Below, one piece after another: positions 1 through 41,893 of a stretch of 42,030 nucleotides of DNA. Below the pieces are notes generated by a model. The model made no database searches. It saw nothing but the letters and a program-made list of their open reading frames with translations, and was not told where the DNA came from. Position 1 is the stretch's first letter; each line of letters opens with the position of its first letter. Where the stretch lies: the IMG/VR virus record IMGVR_UViG_3300036651_001481, positions 1 through 42,030 of that record; one strand, written 5' to 3'. A program made the position numbers and the translations under genes. The stretch comes from a virus.

Positions 1-126
1 AAAGACTTACACCTTTCCTCTACTAATTGTGCAAATTCATGATGTTTTGGTTGCCTCCACAATCTGTCTGGAGCGTAGGCTGAGGGTAAATCAATAATAG
101 GAAGTGTAATGCGGTTTTGTGGGTAA
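1..126. repeat. Direct terminal repeat (contig overlap)
   Basis: Bases 1-126 are identical to 41902-42027. The last three bases of the window (CCT) differ from what follows the first copy (TTC). The methyltransferase reading frame runs through base 1 into the sequence before 41902 and stops at 41895-41897, so joining the ends restores one intact gene. This is best read as the overlap of a circular or circularly permuted assembly, not a biological terminal repeat. Confidence 0.9.
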
Positions 127-1076
127 TTCAAATACGTAAAGATTCTCTCTGTCTCCCTTTTATAGACTTCATCCGCTCCATATTTATCTGTATATCTCTT
201 TAGAGAAGTGAGCATAACTTTGGGAAAGAATGATCCCCACCCAAGACCCATGGTCATTCGACTGTCTTTATAAGACTCAAAATGTCCTGGTTTCATGCCT
301 ACGTTTATCATACCTGGCTTTGATTTATCTAAGAGTTCTTTAATAGGAACAATCGCATCGTCATCTTGATAATAGATCGTCTCAAATTTTGCCCGTTTAA
401 ATAGCTCATGTTTCTTAAAAGGGCTATCAGAATCAATCCCGACTAAAACTTCTCCCCATTGATACTGTTTGATATTGTTTAGGACTTCTTCTGGATAGGC
501 ATGTTCTTTTGTTAACAATACGCAAGATACTTTCTTCAGATCAATAAAAGGCTTCTTAAAGAGATAAAAATATAACTGCCCATCTTCTTCGACTACTTGA
601 CGGATAATAGGCTCACCAAATCGTTTATAATCAAAGTTTCGAATTCGCACGTGTGCATCCATCTTTTCTTCCCGTTCGTAGGCGGTAACTGCTAGATATT
701 TCGTATATCCTTCTAATCGTTTATACATTGCTTCAAGCTCATTCTCATCTAAGATATGAAAAAGAACATCAATACAAAGGAGAAGGTCTGCGTGAGGAAG
801 TATGGGGTCGTTAGTGAAGCTATACTGAGGATATAATTGTCTATTTCGACTGACAATAGTTGGTGAAATATCGTATCCTGTATATGAGGCTTTTGGGTAC
901 AGTTCTAGTAAGTGTTTTCCAAAGTTAAAATCCCCACAGCCAATTTCACTAATTGATTCGATAGTTAGATTATCAAGCCAATGAAGTTTTTTCACAAGTT
1001 GCTCGCCGTAGGAGCCATAGCCAGAATTTCCTCCTTGAGCGTATCTAGAGTCCCAGTATTTTTTTGCATCCATCAT
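1..1076 (-). CDS. SAM methyltransferase / transferase fusion (runs off the left end)
   Basis: The frame opens at ATG 1074-1076 and is open to base 1. On the circle it ends with TAA at 41895-41897, giving about 360 residues. The N-terminal part has a class I SAM-binding motif (EIGCGDFNFG) followed by GYDIS, as in small-molecule or sugar methyltransferases. The C-terminal half has a YYQDDDAIVP stretch that could be the acidic metal site of a GT-A-like fold, so a two-domain glycan-modifying enzyme is plausible (inference). It overlaps the epimerase gene by 32 bases and is last in the glycan operon. No Shine-Dalgarno is visible, so coupled translation is likely. ATG 1071-1073 is an alternative start. 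The methyltransferase call is good; the second domain is uncertain. Confidence 0.8.
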   Translation of the reverse strand, partial: MMDAKKYWDSRYAQGGNSGYGSYGEQLVKKLHWLDNLTIESISEIGCGDFNFGKHLLELYPKASYTGYDISPTIVSRNRQLYPQYSFTNDPILPHADLLLCIDVLFHILDENELEAMYKRLEGYTKYLAVTAYEREEKMDAHVRIRNFDYKRFGEPIIRQVVEEDGQLYFYLFKKPFIDLKKVSCVLLTKEHAYPEEVLNNIKQYQWGEVLVGIDSDSPFKKHELFKRAKFETIYYQDDDAIVPIKELLDKSKPGMINVGMKPGHFESYKDSRMTMGLGWGSFFPKVMLTSLKRYTDKYGADEVYKRETERIFTYLNYPQNRITLPIIDLPSAYAPDRLWRQPKHHEFAQLVEERCKS

Positions 1077-1740
1077 AGATTGAATTTTTTGTCGGTATGG
1101 GATTTTGACATACTACTCCTTTCGCATATCCTTTTGGGGCACTTTTGTATATTGGTTCTATTTTCGTGCCTAATATATCGTTTATTGTCTGAATAATACT
1201 GTTAAATGAAGTAGGCTTTCCTGCTCCCACATCCCGAATACCTACGGATCGGATTGCTATATAACTCATAATTTGATCAATTACATCCTGAATATAGATA
1301 AAATCTCTCTCTTGTGTTCCGTCTCCCCATACTTCAGGGCGTTTCCCTTGTTTCATTGCTTCACATGCCTGAGAAATAAAGGTACGATGCTCCCCTACTC
1401 CATAGACTGGAAAGATGCGAAGCCCTAAGTTATTCGGATAAGCTTTGGCTAACTCTTCCATAGCTTTTTTAAAATGGGTAAAGGCTATTTCTTTCTCTTC
1501 ATACACAAGCGCTGAGGATGGCCACACATAATACACGCCAAAGGAGAGAAAATAAAGGTGACGCTGGAGAAGTGTTTGAAAATAGTAATCAGGATTCTCC
1601 TCAAAAGGCATATGCACAGGCGAGCCAAAATCAAAAATAATATCACAATCCTTTGTAGGCGTTGAGGTGACATTTCCTAAGCGTTTTGCAAGCGCTCCTC
1701 CGATAAACCCACTTCGTCCTATTACACAATATTTGGCCAT
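1045..1740 (-). CDS. NAD-dependent epimerase/dehydratase-like protein (SDR), 231 aa
   Basis: An extended-SDR nucleotide-sugar epimerase/dehydratase homologue. The N-terminal GRSGFIGG is the Rossmann GxxGxxG dinucleotide motif. WPSSALVY carries the family serine region, and FTHFKKAMEE aligns with the usual YxxxK segment. The lysine is kept but the catalytic tyrosine position reads Phe. It is shorter (231 aa) than typical family members (about 300). It overlaps the genes on both sides (19 and 32 bases) inside the glycan operon. The fold is confident. Catalytic competence is doubtful because of the Tyr-to-Phe change, so it may bind rather than convert a nucleotide sugar. Confidence 0.85.
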   Translation of the reverse strand: MAKYCVIGRSGFIGGALAKRLGNVTSTPTKDCDIIFDFGSPVHMPFEENPDYYFQTLLQRHLYFLSFGVYYVWPSSALVYEEKEIAFTHFKKAMEELAKAYPNNLGLRIFPVYGVGEHRTFISQACEAMKQGKRPEVWGDGTQERDFIYIQDVIDQIMSYIAIRSVGIRDVGAGKPTSFNSIIQTINDILGTKIEPIYKSAPKGYAKGVVCQNPIPTKNSIYDGCKKILGL

Positions 1741-2504
1741 ATTTTTGTCCTTGAAAAATGAAAATACGGGATTTCTCTACCAATAAAGGGACGGGCATGA
1801 ATCCATGTTGGGGGGTTTACATCAGCAAGTAACTCCCACAAAGACCCATCTTCTTTTATAGAAAGCTTAGGAATGGGGACGTGGTTTTCAAGTCTATCAT
1901 GTGAGTGAAGTGGATAATACGAAGGGGAAATAAAATGCAAATCCCTCACTAGCTTTGTCATTTCATACTCATCAGTCCCTACAATTGCAGAAGTTTTGAA
2001 AGCTCCCTCCCAGTCTTGAATCTTTCTAAACAAGTTATTTATCTCTTCACAGTTTCGAAAAAGTGAGAAAACCCCATTTACTGCTCCAACGTCATCACTA
2101 AAGACATCACAATGCGCAAGCATGTCATCGTCAATAAAATTATCTAAAAGTCCCCACACTACATCCCAATTAGTTATTCCCCAGAAGTCTGTGTCTTTGA
2201 GATAGTCTTGAAAAATCACCCCATTTGCGACATAGAAGTCACTCATTGGCTTCGTTGGAATGCCATTTTCTATTTGTACTTCTGGGTCAAAACCAAGCTG
2301 CTTTACACAAAGTTTGTTAAATCCCCATATAGTCATAGGAATAATTTCTACATTACCCTTCGTATTGAATTTATAATTATTTATTTCTGGAGCAAATATT
2401 TTCCAATACCATCCATATTTTTCTAGTTTTTGCACATTATCTATATACTGTTGTGTCCATTCATGTGGTGTACCAAATTGTGTTAAGATAAATGTTTTTT
2501 TCAT
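1722..2504 (-). CDS. DUF6625-like putative glycosyltransferase, 260 aa
   Basis: The protein resembles the DUF6625 group found in capsule and glycan loci: a block like DFWGITNWDVVWG, then DDDM and CDVFSDD, then a FSLFRN element. The start is placed at ATG 2502-2504, which overlaps the upstream TGA as ATGA, the clearest coupling signal. An in-frame upstream extension of 13 basic residues lacks support. Its place between a dehydrogenase-like and an epimerase gene fits modification of a virion or host surface glycan. The family assignment is from memory of the motif pattern; the activity is not proven. Confidence 0.7.
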   Translation of the reverse strand: MKKTFILTQFGTPHEWTQQYIDNVQKLEKYGWYWKIFAPEINNYKFNTKGNVEIIPMTIWGFNKLCVKQLGFDPEVQIENGIPTKPMSDFYVANGVIFQDYLKDTDFWGITNWDVVWGLLDNFIDDDMLAHCDVFSDDVGAVNGVFSLFRNCEEINNLFRKIQDWEGAFKTSAIVGTDEYEMTKLVRDLHFISPSYYPLHSHDRLENHVPIPKLSIKEDGSLWELLADVNPPTWIHARPFIGREIPYFHFSRTKIWPNIV

Positions 2505-3145
2505 AGCTTTACGCCTAAAAGTTTTACGTTTGGTAATACGCAATGCCCTCCTATGGGGCCTTCCATGTGTTTGAGCCAGGGTCTGACAACATGCGCCATG
2601 CCGAGCTTTGTATACCCTTTGTTATATGATTGGTTTGCCTCAGTGTAGATAGCATCAAAGTCAACTTTATGCTTCTTACACCATGCGTAAATCTCTTTCT
2701 CAAGCATAATAAGACGTCCATACTGGGTTGTGTCCCATAGCTTGAGAGCTTCAGTGGTTTTAGCGTCTTTATAGACTTTCGTTTTTAGTCCTAAATCAGA
2801 GAAGATTTTTGCAGCCTTTCGAGCATCTTTCCCTCCAAAGTATTTCGTGAATGTGCGTATCCCCTGCTCAAGATTGGGATGTACGCCACGAATGGGAGAA
2901 TGAACTACCCCTAACTTATCACATGTTCCTACAGGGACAGAAGAATGGACAATAACTAGAGGAAAGCCATTTTTGATAAATCTTACATGGTCTTTGAATT
3001 CATTAGAATATGGAAAGCAAACATGAGCAACATCTCCCATTTCTCCATTCCATGTTCCCTCTTGCTTATTGTTCCATAAGGCTTTTCCAATGACCTTATG
3101 AACAGCTTTTCCTACCTCTCCATAACCCCAAATTACATGAACCAT
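2501..3145 (-). CDS. Nucleotide-sugar dehydrogenase-like protein (UDP-Glc/ManNAc dehydrogenase family), 214 aa
   Basis: It shows the landmarks of the UDP-glucose/UDP-ManNAc dehydrogenase family in compact form: N-terminal NAD-binding GYGEVGKA, the HSSVPVGT segment, a central EALKLWDTT helix with the conserved Lys, and PIGGHCVLP with the catalytic-type Cys. At 214 residues it is about half the usual length and lacks the C-terminal UDP-binding domain. It could be a minimal oxidoreductase or a specialised homologue. It overlaps PIG-L by 13 bases upstream and the DUF6625-like gene by 4 bases downstream. Confidence 0.75.
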   Translation of the reverse strand: MVHVIWGYGEVGKAVHKVIGKALWNNKQEGTWNGEMGDVAHVCFPYSNEFKDHVRFIKNGFPLVIVHSSVPVGTCDKLGVVHSPIRGVHPNLEQGIRTFTKYFGGKDARKAAKIFSDLGLKTKVYKDAKTTEALKLWDTTQYGRLIMLEKEIYAWCKKHKVDFDAIYTEANQSYNKGYTKLGMAHVVRPWLKHMEGPIGGHCVLPNVKLLGVKL

Positions 3146-3675
3146 TCTGACCTCCCTTTTATTGCCTCAAAATGAGGCTTGGTAGCTGGTAAATTGATTT
3201 GTGATTGGAAGCACTGAAGAGCTTTTTCTTTCAGTTCTAATTCTCTTTCATTTCCCGTGATCCTCTCTGATCCTGTTGTATAGAGTTCTGTTGGTGTATA
3301 GGTTGTGTAGTGTTTGACTTTATCTCCAAAGACCTCGTCTGCTATTCGTCCTATCAAATCATGGTCTTTATTTCCTCCCTGGACAGCTGGCGCATAGATA
3401 GTCTCAAACCCACTAAAACGCCCTAGGGCTCGTCTTACTGCCCAATCATCTATTACATCATCTCGTATAGCAAGATCAATGTGAGAGCATCCTAGTAATT
3501 CACACGCTTTCCTATCCTCTTCCATGCGCTCTTGAGCAGTGATATTTTCTCCTCTATTGGATTGAATATAAGCAGAAGTCACAGTAACCACAAGTGGATG
3601 CTCACGCATAAGCGTAAAAGCTCCGAAAAGCACACTGTCATCTGAATGTGGAGAGAGCCAGAGCTTATTGGACAT
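3133..3675 (-). CDS. PIG-L family deacetylase, 180 aa
   Basis: A LmbE/PIG-L type metal-dependent N-deacetylase, probably acting on an N-acetylated sugar. The N-terminal SPHSDDSVLFG corresponds to the family PHPDDE metal motif with Ser for the second Pro and for Glu. NKDHDLIG supplies the later HxxH/DH metal ligand motif. ATG 3673-3675 is preceded by a strong GGGAGGTG ribosome site lying inside the upstream small gene. Loss of the usual Glu in the first motif may alter activity. It sits in the glycan operon. Confidence 0.82.
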   Translation of the reverse strand: MSNKLWLSPHSDDSVLFGAFTLMREHPLVVTVTSAYIQSNRGENITAQERMEEDRKACELLGCSHIDLAIRDDVIDDWAVRRALGRFSGFETIYAPAVQGGNKDHDLIGRIADEVFGDKVKHYTTYTPTELYTTGSERITGNERELELKEKALQCFQSQINLPATKPHFEAIKGRSEWFM

Positions 3676-3808
3676 GAGGACACCTCCCGTAATATGCCTT
3701 TGCCGAATTACAATTATGACAAAGAATCTGAAAACCAGTAGGATAATTATTTTTATAATAAAGTGCCATTCTTAATTTTCGTTTTTTATTATCTATTATT
3801 TTTTTCAT
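3665..3808 (-). CDS. Small cysteine-rich (zinc-finger-like) protein, 47 aa
   Basis: A short frame from ATG 3806-3808, overlapping the glycosyltransferase stop as ATGA, to TAA 3665-3667, overlapping the deacetylase start. The C-terminal half has LCHNCNSAKAYYGRCPH, a CxxC...CPH zinc-binding pattern like the ends of many phage HNH-type proteins. The basic N-terminus contains NKKRKLR. It fills the only gap in this operon. Function is unknown; a nucleic-acid-binding or remnant HNH element is possible. Confidence 0.7.
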   Translation of the reverse strand: MKKIIDNKKRKLRMALYYKNNYPTGFQILCHNCNSAKAYYGRCPHVQ

Positions 3809-4725
3809 CTAAAATCAAATACGTTTCTTACAAATAAAACATCGTCATTCGTAGCTGTTTCTGCCATCTTTAGCCATTGCTCAGCATTTTTTTCCCATCT
3901 ATCATTACCTGTCCCTTTACCTGCGAGAATAGCCATAAAGACAATTGCTTCCTTAAAGTTGGCGTTTATTTTAAGAGCCTGAAGACAGGCGTCCCGTGCA
4001 TCCTCTGGCATTTTCATATTCCAGTAGGCTCTGCTCATAATTAAAAATGCTTCTGCTTTCTGTGCTAAGTAGCTGTCACGTTGTACATATTTCCCCAGCA
4101 TTACGACACAGCTTTCATAATCTTGACGATAAAAGTATTCTCTTCCTAAATAAAACATTTCTCGTACTGCATCAGGATTATTTGCTACTTCTTTTTTAAG
4201 GATTCTAAAAGCTCGGTCTTTATCGAGTTCATGTGCTGGAGAGTACCCGTGGGTAATACGGACATTACTTTTTATTTCTCCATTGACTGAGAGATGGTTG
4301 TGGATATTCCCTACCCACCATACTTGTGGAGAGTTTTTAAAAAGTCTTGGATATTGGAATTCCTGCCCATTATCTGAGGCTATCATCGTACAATCTACTG
4401 CTAAAGCATGATGTTCTTCTGCAACTGCAACTGCTTCTCGTACTGCTGCAAAATCATGTAAAACCTCATCTGCATCTATACTTAGAATCCAGTCCCCTGT
4501 TGCTTTGGATTTCGCATGATTTCGTGCCTTACAAAATGAATCTTCCCAGACATAATCTGTATAAACTTTATCAGTATAAAGTTTGGCAAGCTCTACAGTT
4601 CTGTCTTGACTTCCTGTATCACAGATAACGATTTCATCTATACCTTCTATGGAGTCTAAGCATTGGCCTAGGAGAACTTCTTCGTTTTTAACAATCAAAA
4701 CGGCTGAAATGGTAGGCTTTTTCAT
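3805..4725 (-). CDS. Family 2 glycosyltransferase with TPR-like C-terminus, 306 aa
   Basis: A GT2 transferase. The N-terminus TISAVLIVKNEE and CDTGSQDRT are GT2 landmarks, ILSIDADEVL contains the DxD metal/nucleotide-sugar motif, and the C-terminal half is helical and repeat-like (DYESCVVMLGKY, YLAQKAEAF, DARDACLQALK) like TPRs. This matches the SunS/Wbb-type group that glycosylates proteins or cell-surface material. The start is taken at ATG 4723-4725, directly after the U tract of attenuator A. A longer frame would begin with TTG inside the terminator hairpin. It is the first gene of the glycan operon. Confidence 0.88.
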   Translation of the reverse strand: MKKPTISAVLIVKNEEVLLGQCLDSIEGIDEIVICDTGSQDRTVELAKLYTDKVYTDYVWEDSFCKARNHAKSKATGDWILSIDADEVLHDFAAVREAVAVAEEHHALAVDCTMIASDNGQEFQYPRLFKNSPQVWWVGNIHNHLSVNGEIKSNVRITHGYSPAHELDKDRAFRILKKEVANNPDAVREMFYLGREYFYRQDYESCVVMLGKYVQRDSYLAQKAEAFLIMSRAYWNMKMPEDARDACLQALKINANFKEAIVFMAILAGKGTGNDRWEKNAEQWLKMAETATNDDVLFVRNVFDFR

Positions 4726-4790
4726 AAAAAAAGCCCACAAATCCCGAAGGACTTGTGAGCGAAAATGGCTCGAATATGTATATTATAACA
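4726..4790 (-). promoter_or_regulatory. Late attenuator module A (extended -10 promoter, switch hairpin, terminator)
   Basis: Minus strand in order: TGTTATAAT (-10 at 4782-4787), predicted +1 purine at 4775, UUC, hairpin arms GAGC/GCTC with loop CATTTTC, then a perfect 12-bp terminator stem (4733-4760) with a TTCG loop whose 5' arm starts with the same GCTC, then 7 U (4726-4732) and ATG. No good -35 is visible. The two hairpins exclude each other. It controls the glycan operon. Confidence 0.85.
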
Positions 4791-6701: not shown

Positions 6702-7214
6702 TTAAATACTCATTGTTTTTACTCGTTCTAATTGCGTTTGTATTTCTTCTTCTTTACGAGTTAACTTCGTTTTTCTCATATCATCTAATGCTTTTTCTTT
6801 TTGAATTAGGATTCTTTCTTCAGCCACAGACTCTTCCGCTAACTTTACTTTTCCTTCCCATTCTGCAAATTCCTTTTCTTTACGAGTAAGCTTGTCTTCT
6901 CTCTCTGTTATCTCTTCCCCTTTTTTTCTCAATGCTTCTTTTTCACTACTGAGCGCTTCCTGTGCAAGCCTGATAGATCGCTCTTTTACGGCTATTTGCG
7001 TCTCACGCTCTTTAAGTTCATGTTCAAATTGCTTTACTTCTCCCTGGTACTTTGCAAGGTCATTGGCTGTTTTTACCTGCTGCATGTTTTGAGTTTTAAT
7101 CTCTTCCTGCATTACAGTGAGCTTCGCTTCTTTCTTATTGAGCAAATCTTCATATTTGATCGCCTCTTCGAGCTCTTTTTGTAGCTCAGTACATTTTTGT
7201 GTGATATTATTCAT
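6702..7214 (-). CDS. Coiled-coil protein, 170 aa
   Basis: Almost entirely charged heptad-like sequence (Lys, Glu, Gln; for example KELEEAIKYEDLL and EALRKKGEEITERED), predicting one long coiled coil. The start is taken as ATG 7212-7214, overlapping the end of the upstream gene. It lies among head/fibre genes, so an assembly chaperone or structural spacer is plausible. No family recognised. Confidence 0.75.
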   Translation of the reverse strand: MNNITQKCTELQKELEEAIKYEDLLNKKEAKLTVMQEEIKTQNMQQVKTANDLAKYQGEVKQFEHELKERETQIAVKERSIRLAQEALSSEKEALRKKGEEITEREDKLTRKEKEFAEWEGKVKLAEESVAEERILIQKEKALDDMRKTKLTRKEEEIQTQLERVKTMSI

Positions 7215-7491
7215 GAACAACAATCTTCTCCTTTATTCTAGCTATCTCAAGCTTGGGATCAGTCTTATATGAGAAGTCTTCAAGATTAAGGATAAAGTTA
7301 GCGAGATGGGTAATCACCATCGGGGCGAGAGAAGCTTCAAAAGGTTTGGTATCTAAGGCTGGGATAGTAATCGTGTGAGAGACATTCTTGTCATCTAGGT
7401 AGTCCATAGAAAAGTCCTCTGTGGTGTAATTCATCACATAGACTAATCCTTGTGGTTTTTCTTCTGGTAATGTGTTGACTGCGTAAAGCAT
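7207..7491 (-). CDS. Hypothetical structural protein, 94 aa, first gene of operon B
   Basis: Begins with ATG 7489-7491, immediately after the U tract of attenuator B. An AGGGAGGGG sequence in the 3' arm of the terminator lies 8 bases upstream of ATG and could serve as ribosome site only when the hairpin is open. The protein is soluble, mixed alpha/beta (GLVYVMNYTTEDFSMDY). No motif recognised. The operon continues with the coiled-coil and fibre genes. Confidence 0.75.
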   Translation of the reverse strand: MLYAVNTLPEEKPQGLVYVMNYTTEDFSMDYLDDKNVSHTITIPALDTKPFEASLAPMVITHLANFILNLEDFSYKTDPKLEIARIKEKIVVHE

Positions 7492-7551
7492 AAAAAAAGC
7501 CCCTCCCTTACGGGAAAGAGCGAAATATGCTCGAACACTTATATTATACCA
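7492..7551 (-). promoter_or_regulatory. Late attenuator module B
   Basis: TGGTATAAT (-10 at 7543-7548), predicted +1 G at 7536, UUC, hairpin GAGC/GCTC with loop ATATTTC, terminator stem at 7499-7521 with GTAA loop, 7 U (7492-7498), ATG. The -10 overlaps the TAA stop of the upstream gene. The 3' terminator arm contains AGGGAGGGG. Confidence 0.85.
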
Positions 7552-7754: not shown

Positions 7755-8411
7755 TTATGCGCTGATTTCTTCTGCTAATTCTTTTTTACTGGTATGAGGC
7801 ATAATGGCTTCTAAGTCTTCAAGACTTGGAGCGGTTAAGTTCTCAACAGGCTTTACTTTTTTAACTGTTGCAGTTGTCTCTGTACCATATCGTTTATCCT
7901 TTAACTTTTCCATGACTGATTCCTGAACTGACTTATCCTGTGCCAGATAGGGTTGGTCTGGTTGGTATTCTGTCCCAAACTCACGAGTAACGCCTAAAAA
8001 GAGGTTAGGATAGAGGTTAGCTAACTCTTGGTCGCTATTTGTTTTAGGTACTTTTTCCCATATCGCCTTCTGTTGTTGAAATTCATTTAAGCTTTCTTGT
8101 CCTTTTTCTTGGCGCTCTTTCATCATTTGTTCCCACATCTTTTGGCCTTTTTCATTGATAATCTTTTCTGCCATGTGCTTGCAGTACCACACAGCTAAGT
8201 AGCGTTGTACCTCCCGTTTTCCCTCACCATAGCCGATATCTTTATGCTGTGCGGGAACGAGGTAGCGCCATGGCGTTCCTTTGGTGTTGTACCATTCAAT
8301 ATAGAAGTCTTCGTCTGTAGGGTTTTGGATCATGCACCAATCGAGAGAGATACGCTCCATTTCTAAGTGGAGTGCTTCTTCTTCAGTAGAGCGGACAAGA
8401 GGGGCTGCCAT
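7755..8411 (-). CDS. Hypothetical phage protein, 218 aa
   Basis: A hydrophilic protein with several Trp/Tyr-rich stretches in the N-terminal third (FYIEWYNTKGTPWRYLVP) and charged helices after it (KIINEKGQKMWEQMMKERQ). Its ATG overlaps the upstream stop as TAATG. Neighbours are head genes, so a head-completion or virion role is possible. No known domain recognised. Confidence 0.75.
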   Translation of the reverse strand: MAAPLVRSTEEEALHLEMERISLDWCMIQNPTDEDFYIEWYNTKGTPWRYLVPAQHKDIGYGEGKREVQRYLAVWYCKHMAEKIINEKGQKMWEQMMKERQEKGQESLNEFQQQKAIWEKVPKTNSDQELANLYPNLFLGVTREFGTEYQPDQPYLAQDKSVQESVMEKLKDKRYGTETTATVKKVKPVENLTAPSLEDLEAIMPHTSKKELAEEISA

Positions 8412-8602
8412 TATTTTACAACCTCACTTTCAACCAGAGGTGGCTTTTTTGTTACGTCTTCTTCTTTGGGTTGATCAATATAGGGGATAAGTTTATCTAC
8501 GAGGGCAAGAAAGGGTCGAGAGTCGCCAACGGCGATTTGAATGCGGGTAAGGGTACCAACGAGGACTTTTAATTCATCTTGTGAGAGTGGTATGTCTTTC
8601 AT
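8411..8602 (-). CDS. Hypothetical protein, 63 aa, first gene of operon C
   Basis: A small acidic helical protein (LSQDELKVLVGTLTRIQIAVG) with a Pro/Lys/Glu-rich tail. Start ATG 8600-8602 lies nine bases past the U tract of attenuator C. No ribosome site is visible between terminator and ATG. Function unknown. Confidence 0.7.
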   Translation of the reverse strand: MKDIPLSQDELKVLVGTLTRIQIAVGDSRPFLALVDKLIPYIDQPKEEDVTKKPPLVESEVVK

Positions 8603-8611
8603 GTATTATAC

Positions 8612-8672
8612 AAAAAAGACTACGCCCCGTGAGGGATGTAGTCGAAAATGACTGAACAAATACATTATATCA
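8612..8672 (-). promoter_or_regulatory. Late attenuator module C
   Basis: TGATATAAT (-10 at 8664-8669), predicted +1 G at 8657, UUC, hairpin AGTC/GACT with loop ATTTTC, terminator stem GACTAC.../...GTAGTC (8618-8643), 6 U (8612-8617). The quartet differs from GAGC in the other copies, yet both the small hairpin and the terminator remain paired, which is compensatory change. Confidence 0.85.
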
Positions 8673-10082: not shown

Positions 10083-11180
10083 TTATATTCCTGTTACTCC
10101 TGTTAATTGTCCCTGTTTTCTGAATTCCCATGATACTTCTTGTCCTATTACATAGAATCTGCCAAGTCTTCCTGCTTGATAAGGAAGTGTTAATGGTTTC
10201 TGATAGAAGAATCCGTTGTATTCACTTGGCATGTCGAGACTCTCTGCGCCTGTACCTTCATATGCTTTCATTGTCCCTAGATTTACTTTCTCAAGGGTAT
10301 CTGCATATTCTTCTGGAACAATTGTTCTTCCATACCAGCCGAATTTATGTTCATTTAAGAGATAGAAGGTTCCACTTGTTGCAAACTGATCTTTGAGAAC
10401 TGGAATACCTCGGTATGAAATAGAGGTAAATCCTGCACCAGATACCAAGTCACCTTTGCCTCGTACTGCTTGCATTGAGCGAACTGGTACTCGGTCAAAT
10501 CCTGCTTCATTGTAATTCTCTCTTAATGCTGGAGCTAAGAGCTGTCCATAATACGTCCAAACTGTTGGAGTTGTAAGACCTGTATTTGGTTCTTCCATTG
10601 AGAGACCTGCATTTGAGATTGCGTCAAAAAGTGTATCAAGCTTTGGAAGTGTCAATGTTCCACTAGATGCTGTGTTGGTTGCATTTAATACTGTATAGGT
10701 AGATCGGGATTGTCCACCGATTGTACCAGAGTCTAATACGATAATTCCAAGTCCAGATGGTTGGTTACCTGCTGATGTTCCGTAGATTGCTGATCCAAGA
10801 GCTTGAAGTGTCTGTGCTGCTGCCTTTTCATATTTAAAGGTATCAAGTGGGATAATACCTGTGATTCCCGTATTAGCAAAAGACTCTAACATAATAGAGA
10901 CTTGTGGTTGAGTGAATGCTGTCTGTGCAAAGCCAAGAGTAATTGTTGACTGTACTGCTGCAGAATTTAGGTCTTCAAGTCCTGTGATCCATTGTCCCTG
11001 TGTATCAGAGGTAATATCAAGAGTAATTTCTTCTGTCTTGCCTTGCATTGGCTCGCCTTGTGAAAGTTGTCGTGAGAAGTACACCGGAGCATTAAGGATG
11101 TTGTCTACAACCTTAGATCGCAATTTGCGGTTTGTAAAATTATCTACGTTATTTGAATATTGATCTCCGTCGTATGCCAT
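10083..11180 (-). CDS. Major capsid protein (HK97-fold type), 365 aa
   Basis: Identified by order (scaffold, capsid, decoration), length and character: an N-terminal arm (MAYDGDQYSNN), an extended EEITLDITSDTQGQW segment, helical ETL/ALG region, and a C-terminal part like an HK97 P- and A-domain (GIPVLKDQFATSGTFYLLN, KFGWYGRTIVPEEYAD). The start is set at ATG 11178-11180. The longer frame up to 11321 would translate through the two attenuator hairpins and is rejected. It has the strongest promoter of the phage (module D). Confidence 0.88.
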   Translation of the reverse strand: MAYDGDQYSNNVDNFTNRKLRSKVVDNILNAPVYFSRQLSQGEPMQGKTEEITLDITSDTQGQWITGLEDLNSAAVQSTITLGFAQTAFTQPQVSIMLESFANTGITGIIPLDTFKYEKAAAQTLQALGSAIYGTSAGNQPSGLGIIVLDSGTIGGQSRSTYTVLNATNTASSGTLTLPKLDTLFDAISNAGLSMEEPNTGLTTPTVWTYYGQLLAPALRENYNEAGFDRVPVRSMQAVRGKGDLVSGAGFTSISYRGIPVLKDQFATSGTFYLLNEHKFGWYGRTIVPEEYADTLEKVNLGTMKAYEGTGAESLDMPSEYNGFFYQKPLTLPYQAGRLGRFYVIGQEVSWEFRKQGQLTGVTGI

Positions 11181-11190
11181 ATTTTTGTAT

Positions 11191-11321
11191 AAAAAAAGCT
11201 CCCTGCACCTTTCGGTGGGGAGCGATAGTTGCTCGATTTTGTCAAAAAAAATGCTTCCCGTGTGGGAAGCGAAATTTGCTTGAACTAAAAGAATTATATA
11301 CCCGAAATAGTATTCTGTCAA
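11191..11321 (-). promoter_or_regulatory. Late module D: consensus promoter with two tandem attenuators before the capsid gene
   Basis: -35 TTGACA (11316-11321), 17 bases, -10 TATAAT (11293-11298): a perfect sigma70 consensus. Predicted +1 G at 11285. Unit D1: UUC, AAGC/GCTT with loop AAATTTC, terminator stem at 11253-11270, 8 U (11244-11251). Unit D2: AUC, GAGC/GCTC with loop AACTATC, terminator stem at 11198-11223 with GAAA loop, 7 U (11191-11197). Both units keep the shared-arm design. This is the only module lacking TGn before the -10. Confidence 0.88.
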
Positions 11322-12394: not shown

Positions 12395-12601
12395 TTAGTG
12401 ATGCCACTTTTTAGCGTTTTCTGCGAATACCACTTCTTTTTCTAACTTTTCATTTCCTTCTTTTTTTGCAGAGCCTTTTTCCTTCTCAAGTTTCTTCTCT
12501 GGAATTTTTTTGTCATCGGCAATTCCCATCTTCTCATGGAGTAACCCCTTTTTTACCTTAATAGAGAGTTTGCCTGTCTTTTTGTCTTTTGTTGCTTTCA
12601 T
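12395..12601 (-). CDS. Lysine-rich small protein, 68 aa, first gene of operon E
   Basis: Strongly basic (Lys-rich throughout, KIPEKKLEKEKGSAKKEG). The start ATG 12599-12601 is two bases after the U tract of attenuator E. It may bind nucleic acid or act in assembly; no family recognised. It opens the operon that continues with the 79-residue protein and scaffold. Confidence 0.7.
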   Translation of the reverse strand: MKATKDKKTGKLSIKVKKGLLHEKMGIADDKKIPEKKLEKEKGSAKKEGNEKLEKEVVFAENAKKWHH

Positions 12602-12603
12602 AC

Positions 12604-12663
12604 AAAAAAACTCACAAACCTTGCGGCTGTGAGTGAAATTACTCGATTGATTATATTATACCA
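12604..12663 (-). promoter_or_regulatory. Late attenuator module E
   Basis: TGGTATAAT (-10 at 12655-12660), predicted +1 A at 12648, AUC, hairpin GAGT/ACTC with loop AATTTC, terminator stem ACTCACA.../...TGTGAGT (12610-12634) with GCAA loop, 7 U (12604-12610). GAGT replaces GAGC with matching changes in both partner arms. Confidence 0.85.
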
Positions 12664-14797: not shown

Positions 14798-14850
14798 AAA
14801 AAAACCGCCACATTGGGCGGTGAATGTACCGGAATATCTCTATTATATCA
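14798..14850 (-). promoter_or_regulatory. Late attenuator module F (portal)
   Basis: TGATATAAT (-10 at 14842-14847), predicted +1 A at 14835, UUC, hairpin CGGT/ACCG with loop ACATTC, terminator stem ACCGCC(C)/GGCGGT (14804-14821), 7 U (14798-14804). The CGGT quartet is unique to this copy, and all three arms agree. Confidence 0.85.
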
Positions 14851-14851
14851 C

Positions 14852-15097
14852 CTACACGATACCATTGAAAGAATAGTTGCGTTTGCAGTTCGTACAACGC
14901 TTAATAAGAGGCAACGCAATAGGAGCATGTCCCGGGGTTAGACTAATAATCTTTCCCATATACTGGAGTAAAGGTTGTGGGTTACGGCAATAAGGACAAA
15001 AGAATGCGTTGAGGTTATCTGGGTTTTCATCATCATTTGTAATAATGACATCGATGAGGGCAATATCGATTTGTTTACCGGCAATAATGACGAGCAT
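14852..15097 (-). CDS. Zinc-ribbon protein, 81 aa
   Basis: Two Cys pairs, FFCPYCRNPQP and KRCTNCKRNYS, about 35 residues apart, form a zinc ribbon. The N-terminus is hydrophobic beta (MLVIIAGKQIDIALIDVII). It lies between the large terminase and portal and has its own promoter overlapping the terminase stop. A weak AGGA ribosome site precedes ATG 15095-15097. It could bind DNA or RNA; no specific role is evident. Confidence 0.78.
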   Translation of the reverse strand: MLVIIAGKQIDIALIDVIITNDDENPDNLNAFFCPYCRNPQPLLQYMGKIISLTPGHAPIALPLIKRCTNCKRNYSFNGIV

Positions 15098-16585: not shown

Positions 16586-16988
16586 GCAAATCAAAGCCTA
16601 CGAGTGGCTTACCCCCTGTAGTAAAATCTGTGTGCGATTCATCCTTCCACCCAAAATTATTCTTTAGGTTAAAGATTGCCCCAGTCTGTGCTCTGCCTTC
16701 CATAAGGCGAGTTTCGACATCTTCATGCACTCGTTCACGAGCTTGTTCGATAATCTCTGTAAACTCTGGCTTGTTCTTATAATTAAGTAGTCCTTGACGA
16801 GATAAACCTACACGGCGTGCTAAACCTGACATAGTATACGGGGCTGGGTAGTTTACAACGACTTCTTTATTAGTTTTAGGATCAAAGATTGTCTTTATCC
16901 TATTATCCATCTCACTAAAATATTCTTCTACTACAGTTTGTAGCTCTTTAGGTGTTTTATATTTAACTGGCTGGCCGAATTTGTTCAT
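16542..16988 (-). CDS. terS: Terminase small subunit, 148 aa
   Basis: A helix-turn-helix at about residues 50-75 (TMSGLARRVGLSRQGLLNYKN) is followed by a helical region (EFTEIIEQARERVHEDVE) and an Asn/Phe segment GAIFNLKNNFGWKD. This is the pattern of gp3/Terminase_2-type small subunits that select DNA for packaging. Directly upstream of terL. ATG 16986-16988 is directly against the U tract of attenuator G. Confidence 0.9.
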   Translation of the reverse strand: MNKFGQPVKYKTPKELQTVVEEYFSEMDNRIKTIFDPKTNKEVVVNYPAPYTMSGLARRVGLSRQGLLNYKNKPEFTEIIEQARERVHEDVETRLMEGRAQTGAIFNLKNNFGWKDESHTDFTTGGKPLVGFDLHGKGTDQSTDKPTA

Positions 16989-17049
16989 AAAAAAGACCCC
17001 AAACCCTTGCGGGTGGGGTCGAATAAGACCGAATAGCTATATTATATCA
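16989..17049 (-). promoter_or_regulatory. Late attenuator module G (terminase operon)
   Basis: TGATATAAT (-10 at 17041-17046), predicted +1 A at 17034, UUC, hairpin GGTC/GACC with loop TTATTC, strong terminator stem GACCCCACCC/GGGTTTGGGGTC with GCAA loop (16995-17020), 6 U (16989-16994), then ATG with no spacer. The -10 overlaps the stop of the upstream gene. This is the boundary between early and late genes. Confidence 0.87.
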
Positions 17050-17314
17050 CAGGAGTGAGGGGTTTGACTTCCTCTTGCAGTGATCTACGCATCTCTTCTT
17101 TCTCTTCTAAAATCTCTGGGTGATGCAGTTCGTTAAGTCTCGCTGCTGATGGACGCTGTACTACACCACTAGGCTGTCTAAACTGAGGTAGGACTTTATG
17201 TGCTAACTCTTTCTTAATAGCTTGATATGTCTCTTTCGTAAATGAGCCCTTACCTAAGAAATACCCTAGTAAAAAGGTACAGATAGTTCCTAACCAAATA
17301 AATATATTATTCAT
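17042..17314 (-). CDS. Single-pass membrane protein, 90 aa
   Basis: One N-terminal transmembrane helix (residues 3-20, IFIWLGTICTFLLGYFLGKG) followed by a basic then acidic cytosolic tail (EEKEEMRRSLQEEV). It starts within the stop region of the upstream zinc-finger gene. Last gene of the early block; function unknown. Confidence 0.7.
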   Translation of the reverse strand: MNNIFIWLGTICTFLLGYFLGKGSFTKETYQAIKKELAHKVLPQFRQPSGVVQRPSAARLNELHHPEILEEKEEMRRSLQEEVKPLTPVI

Positions 17315-17619
17315 CTTTTATAAAACTCCCCTGGTAGATCCCTACTCCATACATTCTTTGCATTCTTTACTTCTTCTGGACTCGCATCAATGTACTTTGA
17401 ACCATACAGATCTACATACTCCTTACTCAACTCACCATTTCTAAATGGCTGAATGGTTTGGTCTTTGAACTCTTTTCTTTCTTTTTTGATGTGCTCTGGG
17501 ACAAATTCATATGTTCTATCTGTAATCTCTTTTGCTTTATCTCGACAACTCTTACAGGCTATTACCCCAAACTGGGGATGTACTTCAGCCTTATTTACTT
17601 TGCATGTTGGGCATGTCAT
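17311..17619 (-). CDS. Small zinc-finger protein, 102 aa
   Basis: The N-terminal CPTCKVNKAEVHPQFGVIACKSC forms a CxxC...CxxC zinc ribbon. The rest is charged and helical (KERKEFKDQ). It overlaps the neighbouring genes by four bases at each side (ATGA junctions). Probably a nucleic-acid- or RNA-polymerase-binding protein. As a late member of the early operon it is one of several candidates for a transcription regulator, but nothing proves this. Confidence 0.75.
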   Translation of the reverse strand: MTCPTCKVNKAEVHPQFGVIACKSCRDKAKEITDRTYEFVPEHIKKERKEFKDQTIQPFRNGELSKEYVDLYGSKYIDASPEEVKNAKNVWSRDLPGEFYKR

Positions 17620-17774
17620 CTTTCTAATTCCATAAGCATAGTTATTTCCTTATCTTTGTCTTCTAATTCATTAAGAACATTCTCTAAAAGAATAGTCCAC
17701 TCTTTTCGTGACAAAGTTATTCCAAGAATTATTGGCTCTTTTAAATAATCTAATCTCCACTTTTTGATTCTCAT
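17616..17774 (-). CDS. Small helical protein, 52 aa
   Basis: ATG 17772-17774 overlaps the groEL stop as ATGA, and the stop TGA overlaps the next gene's ATG in the same way. The sequence MRIKKWRLDYLKEP...VLNELEDKDKEITMLMELER is basic then coiled-coil. Overlap at both ends supports a real gene. Function unknown. Confidence 0.65.
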   Translation of the reverse strand: MRIKKWRLDYLKEPIILGITLSRKEWTILLENVLNELEDKDKEITMLMELER

Positions 17775-19366
17775 TTCTTTGCTGGCTCATCTCCTGGTGT
17801 TATCACTACATTGATTATCATAAACTGAATTGCAACAGAGACTGCGTTACGCAGGGCACACTTAACCACCTTTGCTGGATCAATAATACCCTTCTCTATC
17901 ATGTTGACTATCTCACCAGTAGTAGCATCTACGCCTTCACCAGGCTTTGCATGCTTCATCTTCTCAGTATATTCACCAACATTAAGGCCAGAGTTGGTCA
18001 TAAGCTGTTCAAAGGGCTTTTGAATAGCTGTTGTCAAAACTGTATAAGCAAGAGCATTTGGATTTCCATACTCTCCAGGCAGAATACCTTTTGGTGCATA
18101 ATAAGAATTTAATACATTTTCTAGCTGAAAGTAAGCTCGCTCTCCACCAATGACTATCCCATCTTCTACGGCTGCCTTGGTCGCTGCGACAGCGTCTATT
18201 GCTCGCTCTTTACGCTCATTCATCTCTACCTCAGTTGTACCACCAACCTTAATGATTGCAACACCTGTCGTGAGTTTGGCTAGTCTTTCTCGTAGCTTCT
18301 CGTTCTCAAAGTCTGAAGGAGTATTCTTCAATAAGGCTTTGATACTCGTAATACGCTCTTCAATGAGTGTAGGATCACCTTTCCCTTGAATCACAATCGT
18401 AGAGTTCTTGTTACTTATAATCTTCTCTGCCTCACCCAAGTCCTCATACTTTATGTCTTCAATGCGTGATCCTTCAGTAAGCGTGATATAGTTTGCACCA
18501 GTTAATATGGCTAGATCTTGAAGAAAGTCTTTCTGAAAGTTTGCTGAATAAGGAGCGTTAATATACAACGCTTGAATAGCGCCTTTTCGCTTATTCTCAA
18601 TTAAAAACTCTCCCATTCGCTCATCCATACCAGGAGCAATAATAACAATAGAAAGTCCTTTCTTCTGTATGTCACTAAAGATAGGCATAAGGCCTTCAAA
18701 GCTGACTGCTCGGTCCATAATAAGGATCTTAGGATTAAGATAGATTGATTCCATATTCTCAGGGTGGGTAACAAAAGCAGCGTGTGCATACCCTGATTCA
18801 AAGCGCATACCCTTCTGATACTCAACATAGGTCTCACTGCCTGTTGTCTCCTCAACTGTGACTATCCCATCTACGCCCATAGAATCAATCGTCTCTGCTA
18901 CCAACTTGCCTAATACCTCATCTTTACAGGAGATAGTGGCAATTTGGGTTGTCTGTGCCAAGCCTTTCACTGGAGTCTTGATCTTATCTACTTCTTTCAC
19001 TAAGAGCTCTACGCCTTCTTCTAAACCCTTTCTGAGTGACATAGGGTGTACTCCAGTCTCAATCAACTTAAATGCTTCATGGATCATATGGTAAGCAAGA
19101 ATAATCGTCGCAGTCGTCGAGTCTCCTGCTTCATCAGCTGTCTTACGTGATGCTTCAGCAACAAGGTTGGCAGCGAAATTCTCTACCTTATCCTCAAGGA
19201 TTACTCGCTTTGCTATCTCTACTCCATCATCAATCACTCTACGCCTAAACTGTTCGTCTAGTCCTGCAGCAAAGGCACGAGGGCCAAGACTAGGTGCTGT
19301 TGCTCTGTACAGCGTTTCTAGTCCATCTAAGAGCTTTTGTTTATCAAACGAAATTAAGTTAGGCAT
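17771..19366 (-). CDS. groEL: GroEL-type chaperonin (Cpn60), 531 aa
   Basis: A full-length group I chaperonin subunit. Equatorial ATP-site landmarks are present: SLGPR, VIDDGVEIAK (Asp 47 aligning with E. coli D52), AGDSTTATI (Asp 82 aligning with D87; the usual Gly of GDGTT is Ser) and IDAVAATKAAVEDG with GGE instead of GGG. The apical domain and SGLNVG near the end are kept. The C-terminal GGM-rich tail of cellular GroEL is absent (ends DEPAKK). It overlaps the upstream gene X by eight bases and is coupled through it to groES. It probably folds phage proteins. Phage chaperonins are known but rare. Confidence 0.95.
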   Translation of the reverse strand: MPNLISFDKQKLLDGLETLYRATAPSLGPRAFAAGLDEQFRRRVIDDGVEIAKRVILEDKVENFAANLVAEASRKTADEAGDSTTATIILAYHMIHEAFKLIETGVHPMSLRKGLEEGVELLVKEVDKIKTPVKGLAQTTQIATISCKDEVLGKLVAETIDSMGVDGIVTVEETTGSETYVEYQKGMRFESGYAHAAFVTHPENMESIYLNPKILIMDRAVSFEGLMPIFSDIQKKGLSIVIIAPGMDERMGEFLIENKRKGAIQALYINAPYSANFQKDFLQDLAILTGANYITLTEGSRIEDIKYEDLGEAEKIISNKNSTIVIQGKGDPTLIEERITSIKALLKNTPSDFENEKLRERLAKLTTGVAIIKVGGTTEVEMNERKERAIDAVAATKAAVEDGIVIGGERAYFQLENVLNSYYAPKGILPGEYGNPNALAYTVLTTAIQKPFEQLMTNSGLNVGEYTEKMKHAKPGEGVDATTGEIVNMIEKGIIDPAKVVKCALRNAVSVAIQFMIINVVITPGDEPAKK

Positions 19367-19838
19367 TGAGTACCTCCTTTACTGCTTCCCAAAGATTATC
19401 ACAAATATTATGTATCCATGCTACTTCTGTTGCATTAGAGTCTGTGTTTTCCCAATGGCTTTTTCTCAAAAATTTATGTTCTTCTAAAAACTCTATCATT
19501 TGACCAATAGAGAGAAGAGGAAGAGCGTCTTTAAGAATTTCTATACCTCTAGCTTTTTGATCTCCTGTATATGAATATCCACTTTCTTGAGATTCTTCAT
19601 TAGGAAAAGTGTCTCCTAAGTCCCAGCCATAATAACCACTATCTGTTTCTTGACGTGTTAATAATTGTGGCTCACCATAATCTTCATCATTATCATCAGG
19701 ACGTCCATAAATATAATAAAGTGAGGAGTATCGAGTTATAAACCAATCCCCAACCTCTGGCTTCCACCACTCTCTCAGTCTCTCTTTCCCTTTCTCTGAG
19801 AGTTCATTTAGCTGGTCAATCGTTATATGTTGTTTCAT
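19359..19838 (-). CDS. Unknown protein X between groES and groEL, 159 aa
   Basis: An acidic soluble protein. It begins with ITIDQLNELSEKGKERLREWW and has LLSIGQMIEFLEEHKF and a C-terminal LWEAVKEVL helix. From memory (unverified) these phrases resemble small proteins common in Firmicutes phages. It overlaps groES (ATGA) and groEL (8 bases), so the three are translationally linked. It may be a chaperonin substrate, adaptor or unrelated passenger. No catalytic motif seen. Confidence 0.8.
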   Translation of the reverse strand: MKQHITIDQLNELSEKGKERLREWWKPEVGDWFITRYSSLYYIYGRPDDNDEDYGEPQLLTRQETDSGYYGWDLGDTFPNEESQESGYSYTGDQKARGIEILKDALPLLSIGQMIEFLEEHKFLRKSHWENTDSNATEVAWIHNICDNLWEAVKEVLNA

Positions 19839-20101
19839 TCTGTTACTACTCCTCTTACTTGGTCAAAGATTATTAAATATTGGTTAGTCCCTGGTATTCT
19901 CTCGTTTCCATTAAACACAAAGTAGATAATATCTCCTTCACTAACTGGACAGTAGATCTTCTCATGGCAGATATGCCAGACAAAGTCTCCTGCTGAGATT
20001 ACCTTTGCTTTGTGTAATTCCCCATTCTGTGCCGGGACACTGAATCCACCCGTTTCTTGAATATCCTCTACTAAAATAATGTTGCGTGTTGCTTTTATCA
20101 T
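19835..20101 (-). CDS. groES: GroES-like co-chaperonin, 88 aa
   Basis: Fits the Cpn10 pattern in order: an N-terminal beta strand (NIILVEDI), a mobile loop with ETGGFSVPAQ replacing the usual GGIVLP, a KAKVISAGD element, VSEGDIIYF, and the C-terminal YLIIFDQVRGVV strand aligned with the ending of GroES. A Cys/His insert (WHICHEKIYC) replaces part of the roof loop. It lies upstream of groEL in the same operon. The start codon lies at the predicted transcription start, suggesting a leaderless message. Confidence 0.87.
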   Translation of the reverse strand: MIKATRNIILVEDIQETGGFSVPAQNGELHKAKVISAGDFVWHICHEKIYCPVSEGDIIYFVFNGNERIPGTNQYLIIFDQVRGVVTE

Positions 20102-20116
20102 ATCTCTATTATATCA
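20102..20116 (-). promoter_or_regulatory. Extended -10 promoter of the chaperonin operon (leaderless)
   Basis: TGATATAAT with -10 at 20108-20113 and only six bases (AGAGAT) before ATG 20099-20101. Transcription should start at or next to the ATG. The -10 is like those of modules A-J, but no hairpin and no ribosome site follow. Confidence 0.75.
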
Positions 20117-20129
20117 AATCGATCGTATC

Positions 20130-26932: not shown

Positions 26933-26967
26933 GCGGGTTTAGCTCAGTGGTAGAGCATCTGTCTACC
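26933..26967 (+). other. attP candidate: 5' half of a tRNA (Gly-like)
   Basis: GCGGGTTTAGCTCAGTGGTA (26933-26952) and the following GAGCA give an acceptor 5' strand, U8-A9, and a complete D arm (GCTC/GAGC). TCTGT then matches an anticodon-stem 5' strand and the loop begins CT. After the loop the expected 3' anticodon strand (ACAGA) is missing. No T arm or 3' acceptor strand is present nearby. A partial tRNA beside an integrase is the usual mark of a tRNA attachment site with anticodon-loop crossover. Here the 5' half is carried, with its own -10 box 22 bases upstream. Confidence 0.65.
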
Positions 26968-27010
26968 GAGGAGCTAGAGGCTGAATGCGGATCTAGTAAT
27001 ACTTTTATAC

Positions 27011-30332: not shown

Positions 30333-30605
30333 TTAATGTAAATGTTGTAAATACTGAATAAAAAGAAATTCAATAATCACAGAAATAATTGCAGCAAGCG
30401 TTGGAGAAGCCCATTTCCATAAATCACTTGAGTTTTCTAATTTATCAAGCCGTATTTCACTTGCTTTTTTTACATCTTCAAGAGAAACTTGGGTTGCATA
30501 GACCCCGGCAAGGTCTTTAACAGATGCTTTGATCTCGGCAATATCCTTTTTTATGTATTCAAGGTTATTACCCATTACTGCTAGTTTTGTTACTTCGTCT
30601 GTCAT
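30333..30605 (-). CDS. XhlA-like membrane lysis protein, 90 aa
   Basis: N-terminal coiled coil (YIKKDIAEIKASVKDLAG, KASEIRLDKLENSSDLWKW) and one C-terminal hydrophobic helix (LAAIISVIIEFLFIQYL). This matches the XhlA/haemolysin-type proteins that act with holin and endolysin. First gene of the lysis group. Confidence 0.75.
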   Translation of the reverse strand: MTDEVTKLAVMGNNLEYIKKDIAEIKASVKDLAGVYATQVSLEDVKKASEIRLDKLENSSDLWKWASPTLAAIISVIIEFLFIQYLQHLH

Positions 30606-30700
30606 ATTGACTATTTATTTTTTCTATGTCTAAACTATATATAGTCAATCGCTAGGTGCAACCCGCTTCTTTTTCTAGCGATTGAGGAGCGGGTTTTTCC
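30606..30700. promoter_or_regulatory. Interleaved inverted repeats before the lysis genes
   Basis: Three competing stems: ATTGACTAT/ATAGTCAAT (30606-30614, 30641-30649); TCAATCGCTAG/CTAGCGATTGA (30645-30655, 30675-30685); ACCCGCT/AGCGGGT (30661-30667, 30688-30694). The first two share bases and the last two interlock. On the plus strand the third stem is followed by TTTTT and could terminate. On the minus strand the first stem closes right beside the start of the XhlA-like gene. Confidence 0.7.
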
Positions 30701-31124: not shown

Positions 31125-31177
31125 AAAAAAACCTCTCCGAAGAGAGGTGATACTACCTGAATGCTTCTATTATATCA
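31125..31177 (-). promoter_or_regulatory. Late attenuator module H
   Basis: TGATATAAT (-10 at 31169-31174), predicted +1 A at 31162, UUC, hairpin AGGT/ACCT with loop AGTATC, terminator ACCTCTC-TTCG-GAGAGGT (31131-31148), 7 U (31125-31131), ATG. A GGAGAGG ribosome site is buried in the 3' terminator arm. Confidence 0.87.
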
Positions 31178-34137: not shown

Positions 34138-34962
34138 TTATGCTGGTGCTGAAACCTTTGTTGTAGGATTGTAATACCCACCTGTTGTAGGGTTATAATA
34201 GGTAGAACCTGATGCGAGAATTTGATTCTGGGATGAAATCTTTTGAGCAGCTATTAACGCATCCGCCTGTGTTTTTGCATTCTGTAGAGAAGCAAGTGTA
34301 GCCGCATCTTGTCCACTAAGAGTAGCACCAGAAGCTACGGCAGCCTCCAAGGCTGCTAGTTGGTTGGCCTGGTCTGCCGTGAAATTCGCATAACCCCCTG
34401 ATATTGCACTATTTACTAAGCCCGCAGAGTTTGCAAATGGTGATAATTGTTGTTGCTCGTTGTTAACACCAGCCTGCACCATGGTATTTGCTAACCCCTG
34501 TGCTGTCTGCGCTGAATTAGTAGAAGCTTGTGCTAAAGGATCTAATTCCCATTGCTTCTGCCCGATTAACTGCATCAACTGGTTATTATTCGTATCTGAA
34601 CCCTGTGTAGCCTGGGAATAGGTTTGAGGAATTTGTAAGACCGTATTATTGAGATCGTTTGCTTTCTGAGCTAAGGGTTGTACGTTATATTGTGTATTCG
34701 CATCGTTTTGTAGTTTTTGATAGGTCGGAAGCGCATTGACTGCCGCCTGATTTGCCCCTTGGAACGCTCCTATTGTCCCATATTGTGCGTTATTAAAGTT
34801 TTGACTGTTTTTATTCTGCCCATTGGCAATACTCGTATAGTCAGGCATCTGATACCCACCGACATTACTTTGTCCATTCACAGTCTGGCCTCCTACCGAC
34901 GAAGCGTTGATATTTGGAGAACTATAATTATAATTTGTTGCGTATGGGTTCGAGTCTGCCAT
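34138..34962 (-). CDS. Q/N-rich internal virion protein, 274 aa
   Basis: Gln, Asn, Ala and Tyr dominate; a disordered N-terminus then helical Ala/Gln-rich repeats (ADQANQLAALEAAVASG), ending in YYNPTTGGYYNPTT. First gene after attenuator I. Composition and position next to the glucosaminidase suggest an ejection protein. Confidence 0.72.
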   Translation of the reverse strand: MADSNPYATNYNYSSPNINASSVGGQTVNGQSNVGGYQMPDYTSIANGQNKNSQNFNNAQYGTIGAFQGANQAAVNALPTYQKLQNDANTQYNVQPLAQKANDLNNTVLQIPQTYSQATQGSDTNNNQLMQLIGQKQWELDPLAQASTNSAQTAQGLANTMVQAGVNNEQQQLSPFANSAGLVNSAISGGYANFTADQANQLAALEAAVASGATLSGQDAATLASLQNAKTQADALIAAQKISSQNQILASGSTYYNPTTGGYYNPTTKVSAPA

Positions 34963-35017
34963 AAAAAATCACCCTCCTAAGAGAGTGAAATATACTCGAA
35001 CTGCTTCTATTATAGCA
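34963..35017 (-). promoter_or_regulatory. Late attenuator module I
   Basis: TGCTATAAT (-10 at 35009-35014), predicted +1 G at 35001, UUC, hairpin GAGT/ACTC with loop ATATTTC, 8-bp terminator TCACTCTC/GAGGGTGA (34969-34988), 6 U (34963-34968), ATG. The loop and 3' arm contain AGGAGG, a perfect ribosome site, hidden when the terminator forms. Confidence 0.88.
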
Positions 35018-41827: not shown

Positions 41828-41837
41828 ACTTTCCCAC

Positions 41838-41893
41838 AAAAAACGCCCTCCTTTCGGAGAGCGAATAATTGCTCGAACAACTCTATTATAGCA
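41838..41893 (-). promoter_or_regulatory. Late attenuator module J (tail operon)
   Basis: TGCTATAAT (-10 at 41885-41890), predicted +1 G at 41878, UUC, hairpin GAGC/GCTC with loop AATTATTC, terminator CGCTCTCC-GAAA-GGAGGGCG (41844-41863), 6 U (41838-41843). It lies just after the stop of the methyltransferase gene and controls the tail operon. Confidence 0.87.

Follow-up and report, generated by a model that had tools for sequence, protein, structure and literature searches.

Putative three-segment attenuators precede structural genes in a phage family probably infecting Patescibacteria, with a tandem pair at one capsid gene

In the stretch of viral DNA analysed here (the window; 42,030 nt, positions 1 to 42,030 of IMG/VR record IMGVR_UViG_3300036651_001481), the major capsid gene follows a consensus promoter and two short units that are each predicted to fold in two alternative ways, and modules of the same plan recur before structural and packaging genes across a family of related phages. 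They appear to be an undescribed recurrent regulatory RNA organising structural-gene expression in this Patescibacteria-linked family, whose likely hosts are organisms in which phage transcription is little known. Each module would represent a very small three-segment attenuator, of a kind that nature provides in dozens of versions with the covariation already built in.

The plan of a unit is X-loop-X'-hairpin-X-T7/8, in which X' can pair either with the upstream X, closing a mini-hairpin, or with the downstream X, forming the base of an intrinsic terminator. Two such units, D1 and D2, are arranged head-to-tail in the capsid leader between promoter and start codon on the minus strand (Table 1). 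In D1 the mini-hairpin (11267-11281) and the terminator stem-loop (11253-11270) have the GCTT arm in common, with folding energies of -6.0 kcal/mol for the former and -12.8 kcal/mol for the latter. D2, with its mini-hairpin at 11220-11234 and its terminator at 11198-11223 (-17.4 kcal/mol), is a complete second unit lacking only a promoter of its own. Both match the structure of intrinsic terminators as predicted from sequence, having a G+C-rich stem followed at once by a U tract, and the whole leader folds at -31.9 kcal/mol compared with -19.4 kcal/mol in shuffles (z = -4.1), with both terminators formed. The two serial units (AAGC/GCTT and GAGC/GCTC), each with terminator and U tract, had been part of the original prediction and are confirmed here, each with an alternative fold. 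The capsid proteins of relatives are 48-64% identical to that of the window, with similarity starting at the ATG at 11180. An ORF finder nevertheless leaves the capsid frame open upstream to the TTG of the -35 element (10083-11321), an extension over the module that is due to chance, so automatic annotation could bury the module within the gene.

Besides the capsid module, nine further promoter-linked units of the same plan lie in the window, all on the minus strand and all before structural, packaging or adjacent genes, bringing the promoter-linked units to ten, with the promoterless D2 as the eleventh. None was found within the 17-31 kb region of the window. The conserved 704-aa gene behind one of them probably encodes the portal protein, judging from its position and from the annotation of its homologue in MW202566.

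Table 1. Coordinates of the capsid leader, of the other modules and of a candidate regulatory gene in the window
Feature	Position	Strand	Details
Consensus promoter of capsid gene	11293..11321	(-)	TTGACA-17-TATAAT, no TGn; -35 11321-11316, -10 11298-11293
Unit D1	11244..11281	(-)	AAGC-aaatttc-GCTT-cccacacggg-AAGC-A-T8; X = AAGC, loop aaatttc
Unit D2	11191..11234	(-)	GAGC-aactatc-GCTC-cccaccgaaaggtgcagg-GAGC-T7; X = GAGC, loop aactatc
Major capsid protein gene	10083..11180	(-)	ATG 11180; phrog_9953 major head protein, E 4e-19
Module at start of tail-region genes	41837..41893	(-)	TGn -10, one unit
Module before 274-aa structural-region gene (cluster t272)	34962..35017	(-)	
Module before 140-aa gene 30702-31124	31125..31177	(-)	
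Module before small terminase gene	16988..17049	(-)	
Module before conserved 704-aa gene	14798..14850	(-)	
Module before 68-aa gene 12395-12601	12604..12663	(-)	
Module before gene 8411-8602	8611..8672	(-)	
Module before gene 7207-7491	7492..7551	(-)	
Module before glycosyltransferase-like gene 3805-4740	4726..4790	(-)	
102-aa zinc-ribbon-like protein, weak factor candidate	17311..17619	(-)	after groEL, before packaging genes

The capsid promoter, which had been predicted correctly to the base, was the sole 12/12 match of the sigma-70 type in the two 20-kb stretches scanned, and a perfect pair with 16-18 spacing is expected only 0.04 times per dinucleotide-shuffled window. It is also, as had been claimed, the window's only module with a consensus -35 and the only one without TGn: the -35 match is 6/6, whereas all nine other promoter-linked modules have TGn before TATAAT and -35 matches of at most 4/6. 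Across the family, a correctly placed TTGACA occurs in 11/18 capsid modules versus 0/41 other modules (p = 1e-7), which identifies a distinct strong promoter as a conserved trait of the capsid gene. The tandem pair of units, by comparison, occurs in the window genome only among family contigs, and ten other phages have a TTGACA capsid promoter with a single unit. The proposal that the strongest promoter needs double insulation therefore does not hold as a rule.

Capsid homologues at the 48-64% level of identity come from viral contigs and from two contigs of MAGs, of which one is a Patescibacteria bacterium, and a TM7 phage is a distant relative (28% identity). The family thus probably infects Patescibacteria, an assignment that rests on one MAG and this distant TM7 relative. 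The family contigs are mostly records of uncultivated viruses and may be incomplete. A scan of 688 kb from related phages gave 56 sites at which a promoter, a terminator and an in-register mini-hairpin occur together, versus no such coincidence in the same 688 kb after dinucleotide shuffling or reversal; among control phages, lambda contained no module and Sfi21 one unconvincing candidate. Chance terminators are ruled out as the origin of the modules by these controls. When terminator-like sites were grouped solely by the presence of an upstream -10 element, an in-register mini-hairpin was found at 52/63 sites with one and 44/221 without (Fisher 9e-20). After eight spurious sites had been dropped by eye and near-duplicate contigs excluded, the curated set comprised 59 modules in 20 contigs. 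A pattern search yielded three further module-bearing contigs, all members of the same phage family. In structural or packaging operons, the modules sit on the coding strand; nearly every relative has a single module at the capsid gene, and modules are also frequent at the portal gene and at further structural genes. Several relatives carry this promoter type without an attenuator at certain structural genes (terminase, scaffold, long tail gene), and in one contig (G018), which has leaderless promoters, no module was found, so gating of late genes is not universal. We also considered a host regulatory element and rejected it, as one loop/X class of the full module was absent from 380 genomes of the phylum to which the relative-bearing MAG belongs and present in viral contigs.

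Comparison of the 59 curated modules supports the view that the units are attenuators by design. They contain 30 different X sequences with X:X' pairing retained, the loop-adjacent base pairs being CG, GC, AT, TA and a few TG, and in 59/59 modules the X' arm is paired in the terminator at at least two of its first three positions. Because X varies and yet both pairings persist, two mutually exclusive helices both seem to be maintained, and it is this continued complementarity of X, X' and X under sequence change that points to an attenuator. A DNA operator was rejected as the main reading, since X is free to change while complementarity persists.

The mini-hairpins have stems of 3-5 pairs and one apical loop of 5 nt (n = 28), 6 nt (n = 22), 7 nt (n = 8) or 8 nt (n = 1). 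The first loop base is A in 53/59 modules, the next-to-last a pyrimidine in 58/59 and the last A or C in 55/59, giving a consensus of A...Y-(A or C). Within this frame the loops follow the genome rather than the gene. Mini-hairpin loop identity is 0.78 within a genome versus 0.49 between genomes (0 of 2000 permutations as extreme), while terminator loops are not conserved (0.32 within, 0.29 between). Likewise, the loops of capsid modules are closer to other modules of the same genome (0.81) than to those at the capsid genes of other phages in the family (0.59; p = 3e-9). For example, all modules of G008 and G021 have ACACA, those of G001 mostly AATTTA, and most of those in the window nnnTTC. 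This is the pattern expected of a shared, co-evolving trans-acting factor. Duplication of one module could account for part of the within-genome sharing; X and the terminator loops have nonetheless diverged.

On this basis we lean, somewhat beyond an even balance, towards the reading that each unit is a three-segment attenuator resembling ANTAR P2, in which a putative trans-acting factor would stabilise the mini-hairpin and permit read-through. At the very start of the mRNA, segments 1 and 3 (both X) would compete for segment 2 (X'). In the unbound state, X' and segment 3 would complete a full intrinsic terminator on the U tract, and we infer that most transcripts would end after about 40-50 nt. 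The factor would bind the 5-7-nt loop of the X:X' mini-hairpin and keep X' upstream, leaving a terminator that is short of the 3-4 base pairs at its foot and separated from the U tract by about 4 nt, and the polymerase would then enter the gene. With the AUG directly after the U tract, the G-rich third segment would be freed 7-8 nt before the AUG as a possible Shine-Dalgarno sequence. At the capsid gene, a strong promoter with two serial units would give tighter silence before the factor acts, each unit being opened separately. In the units of the window the terminator fold is better than the mini-hairpin fold by 1-8 kcal/mol, and its greater stability makes a default off state plausible. A hairpin of 3-4 bp is weak without a ligand. 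In the mini-hairpin fold the inner stem mostly persists, with the released third segment lying between it and the U tract. The factor is most likely encoded by the phage and co-evolving with its sites, because the loop type is common to the modules of one phage and different between phages. More tentatively, and with less than even confidence, we suggest that it may be a fast-evolving, phage-encoded RNA-binding antiterminator that recognises a hairpin of 3-4 bp with a 5-7-nt loop at most structural operons, constituting a minimal ANTAR-like switch and a new class of RNA and protein, in which a single event would both permit transcription and expose the ribosome site, with phage specificity set by the loop.

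The mini-hairpin is transcribed ahead of the terminator and is its in-register competitor, as would also be expected of a kinetic attenuator that needs no protein, in which the mini-hairpin forms first and delays the terminator, read-through is fixed or depends on polymerase speed, and two units multiply the loss at the capsid promoter. Regulator searches that found none (see below) fit this scheme as well. Such an attenuator needs no particular loop sequence, yet the loop is the most uniform part of the module in each genome and shifts in concert between genomes, and we consider a purely kinetic device unlikely. Loop conservation would equally be left unexplained if the terminators served mainly to stop transcripts arriving from upstream operons, with the mini-hairpin freeing locally started RNA. 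The strong extragenic minus-strand terminators of the structural regions are the modules themselves, and the gene preceding the capsid gene (stop at 11331) ends about 10 nt before the capsid -35 without another strong terminator, in keeping with such an insulating role. A terminator placed upstream of the promoter would be simpler, however, and local and read-through RNA have the same folds with nothing obvious to tell them apart, so that insulation as the main function is quite improbable.

In a further alternative, the hairpins would mainly regulate how ribosomes reach their site or shield the 5' end, with termination of lesser importance. X is purine-rich (73% versus 50% in other terminators), predicted anti-Shine-Dalgarno pairing of the 20-nt upstream region averages -6.0 kcal/mol where the AUG abuts the U tract versus -3.4 kcal/mol elsewhere, and the spacing from TATAAT to X sets the mini-hairpin close to the expected 5' end (within a few nt), as would suit a stabiliser. 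The U tracts after the stems are nonetheless kept even where the AUG lies 20-50 nt further on and has its own Shine-Dalgarno sequence (as in G002 and G017), which marks them as a termination feature, and we give a primarily translational or stabilising role little credence. Least probable in our assessment is N- or Q-type processive antitermination, in which a polymerase modified once near the promoter passes D1 and D2 alike. The original prediction had envisaged such a factor passing both stops, and it is possible but not the best reading. The mini-hairpin does stand at a plausible loading site on nascent RNA, with a loop that varies by phage; its arm is common with the terminator, however, which is needless for a loading site, and most structural operons have their own module. 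D2, moreover, retains its own in-register mini-hairpin and a loop of the lineage type, which a single polymerase modification would not need and which argues for local opening at each terminator, as the favoured attenuator reading would have it. The tandem capsid copy offers a natural test of local versus processive antitermination.

Among described systems, the ANTAR regulators EutV, NasR and AmiR recognise a small hairpin with variable stem and conserved loop whose 3' arm overlaps the 5' arm of a terminator, so that stabilising the hairpin shortens the terminator stem and parts it from the poly-U tract (PMC3369936, PMC8934654). The phage modules likewise use one segment as 3' arm of the antiterminator and 5' arm of the terminator (59 curated modules; 52/63 promoter-linked terminators), and their first loop base is A, as in ANTAR hairpins. 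They differ in that the ANTAR hexaloop has A1 and G4, whereas module loops are mostly 5-7 nt with no G4 among the listed 6-nt loops; in having one hairpin per terminator, D1 and D2 included, instead of P1 and P2 before one terminator; in the position of the hairpin, which lies within a few nt of where the 5' end is expected; and in recurring at many operons of a phage. With BglG, SacY and LicT the modules have in common a leader antiterminator helix that excludes an intrinsic terminator and is stabilised by a protein (putative in the phages), but the RAT stem is broken by two asymmetric internal loops (PMC3369936), unlike the 3-5 pairs with a single apical loop and no internal loops seen here. 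As with lambda Q, a phage late promoter is followed by a terminator to be passed. Lambda Q, however, engages a paused polymerase via a DNA site in the promoter (PMC6606751) and acts processively, in contrast to an RNA helix that overlaps the terminator and is present at many operons, with ten promoter-linked modules in the window rather than one. The three-segment folding choice of the modules is shared with the trp type; unlike the trp attenuators, they leave no room for a leader peptide, and their 5' segment lies a few nt from the expected transcription start. In amino-acid attenuators of that type, the choice is between 1:2 and 2:3 folding. Cluster K mycobacteriophages reportedly carry start-associated sequences, in which one short element recurs at numerous gene starts within a single phage, and by this description the modules resemble them; those sequences are not known to overlap a terminator. 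No known RNA family in Rfam matches the modules: a search with Rfam 15 at the gathering score gave no match in the window, and the capsid leader had only sub-threshold matches. No account of modules of this kind turned up in literature searches. From these comparisons they are best filed as hairpin-based antitermination in a new form, predicted to act like an ANTAR P2 antiterminator yet belonging to neither the ANTAR nor the CAT class.

The loop code implies a trans-acting factor, which is now open to search. The ANTAR domain (PF03861) was absent from 12/12 phage records and the CAT_RBD domain (PF03123) from 12/12 records, one of which was a Patescibacteria MAG holding a relative. Presence/absence clustering for proteins that track the modules gave no clear candidate. 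The 102-aa zinc-ribbon-like protein listed in Table 1 is well placed and found in 14/18 family contigs; it matches nothing in Pfam above cut-off, nothing in PHROG and no PDB sequence significantly, and its AlphaFold model (mean pLDDT 80) gave no fold match. It occurs also in the module-free G018, and we retain it as a weak candidate only. Another small protein, with two CxxC motifs, has its gene (14852-15097) between those for the large terminase and the portal and occurs in 15/18 family contigs, some versions being longer with a second such region.

Some promoters of the TGnTATAAT type are often followed by an ATG after 4-8 nt and are thus leaderless, as at the window's groES and at loci L031, L054, L059 and L060, and they occur at many genes of G012, G015 and G018. 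At orthologous genes, the module form and the leaderless form substitute for each other. In the window, one TGnTATAAT promoter, that of groES-groEL (20101-20120), has this form, with the ATG 4-8 nt behind it; the phage-encoded groEL (17771-19366) and groES (19835-20101) are also present in most relatives. On the minus strand of G023, the hairpin elements behind the TGGTAAAAT promoters at 21895, 14216 and 9337 (L066, L067) are weaker and spaced differently, and may represent modules that have diverged. Where the late strand ends (3-4740), methyltransferase, nucleotide-sugar epimerase and glycosyltransferase-like genes form a run that possibly serves surface or DNA modification; a separate module precedes the last of them. 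Beside the integrase gene, positions 26936-26995 resemble the 5' part of a tRNA gene (gcgggtttagctcagtggtagagcatctgtctaccgagga...), although ARAGORN calls no tRNA there, and this stretch is possibly an attachment site. Finally, a strong terminator-like hairpin (-20 kcal/mol) lies on the plus strand at 30650-30700, in the gap between genes 30333-30605 and 30702-31124; it overlaps a second inverted repeat (ATCGCTAG...CTAGCGAT) and is a possible alternative-fold element on the opposite strand.
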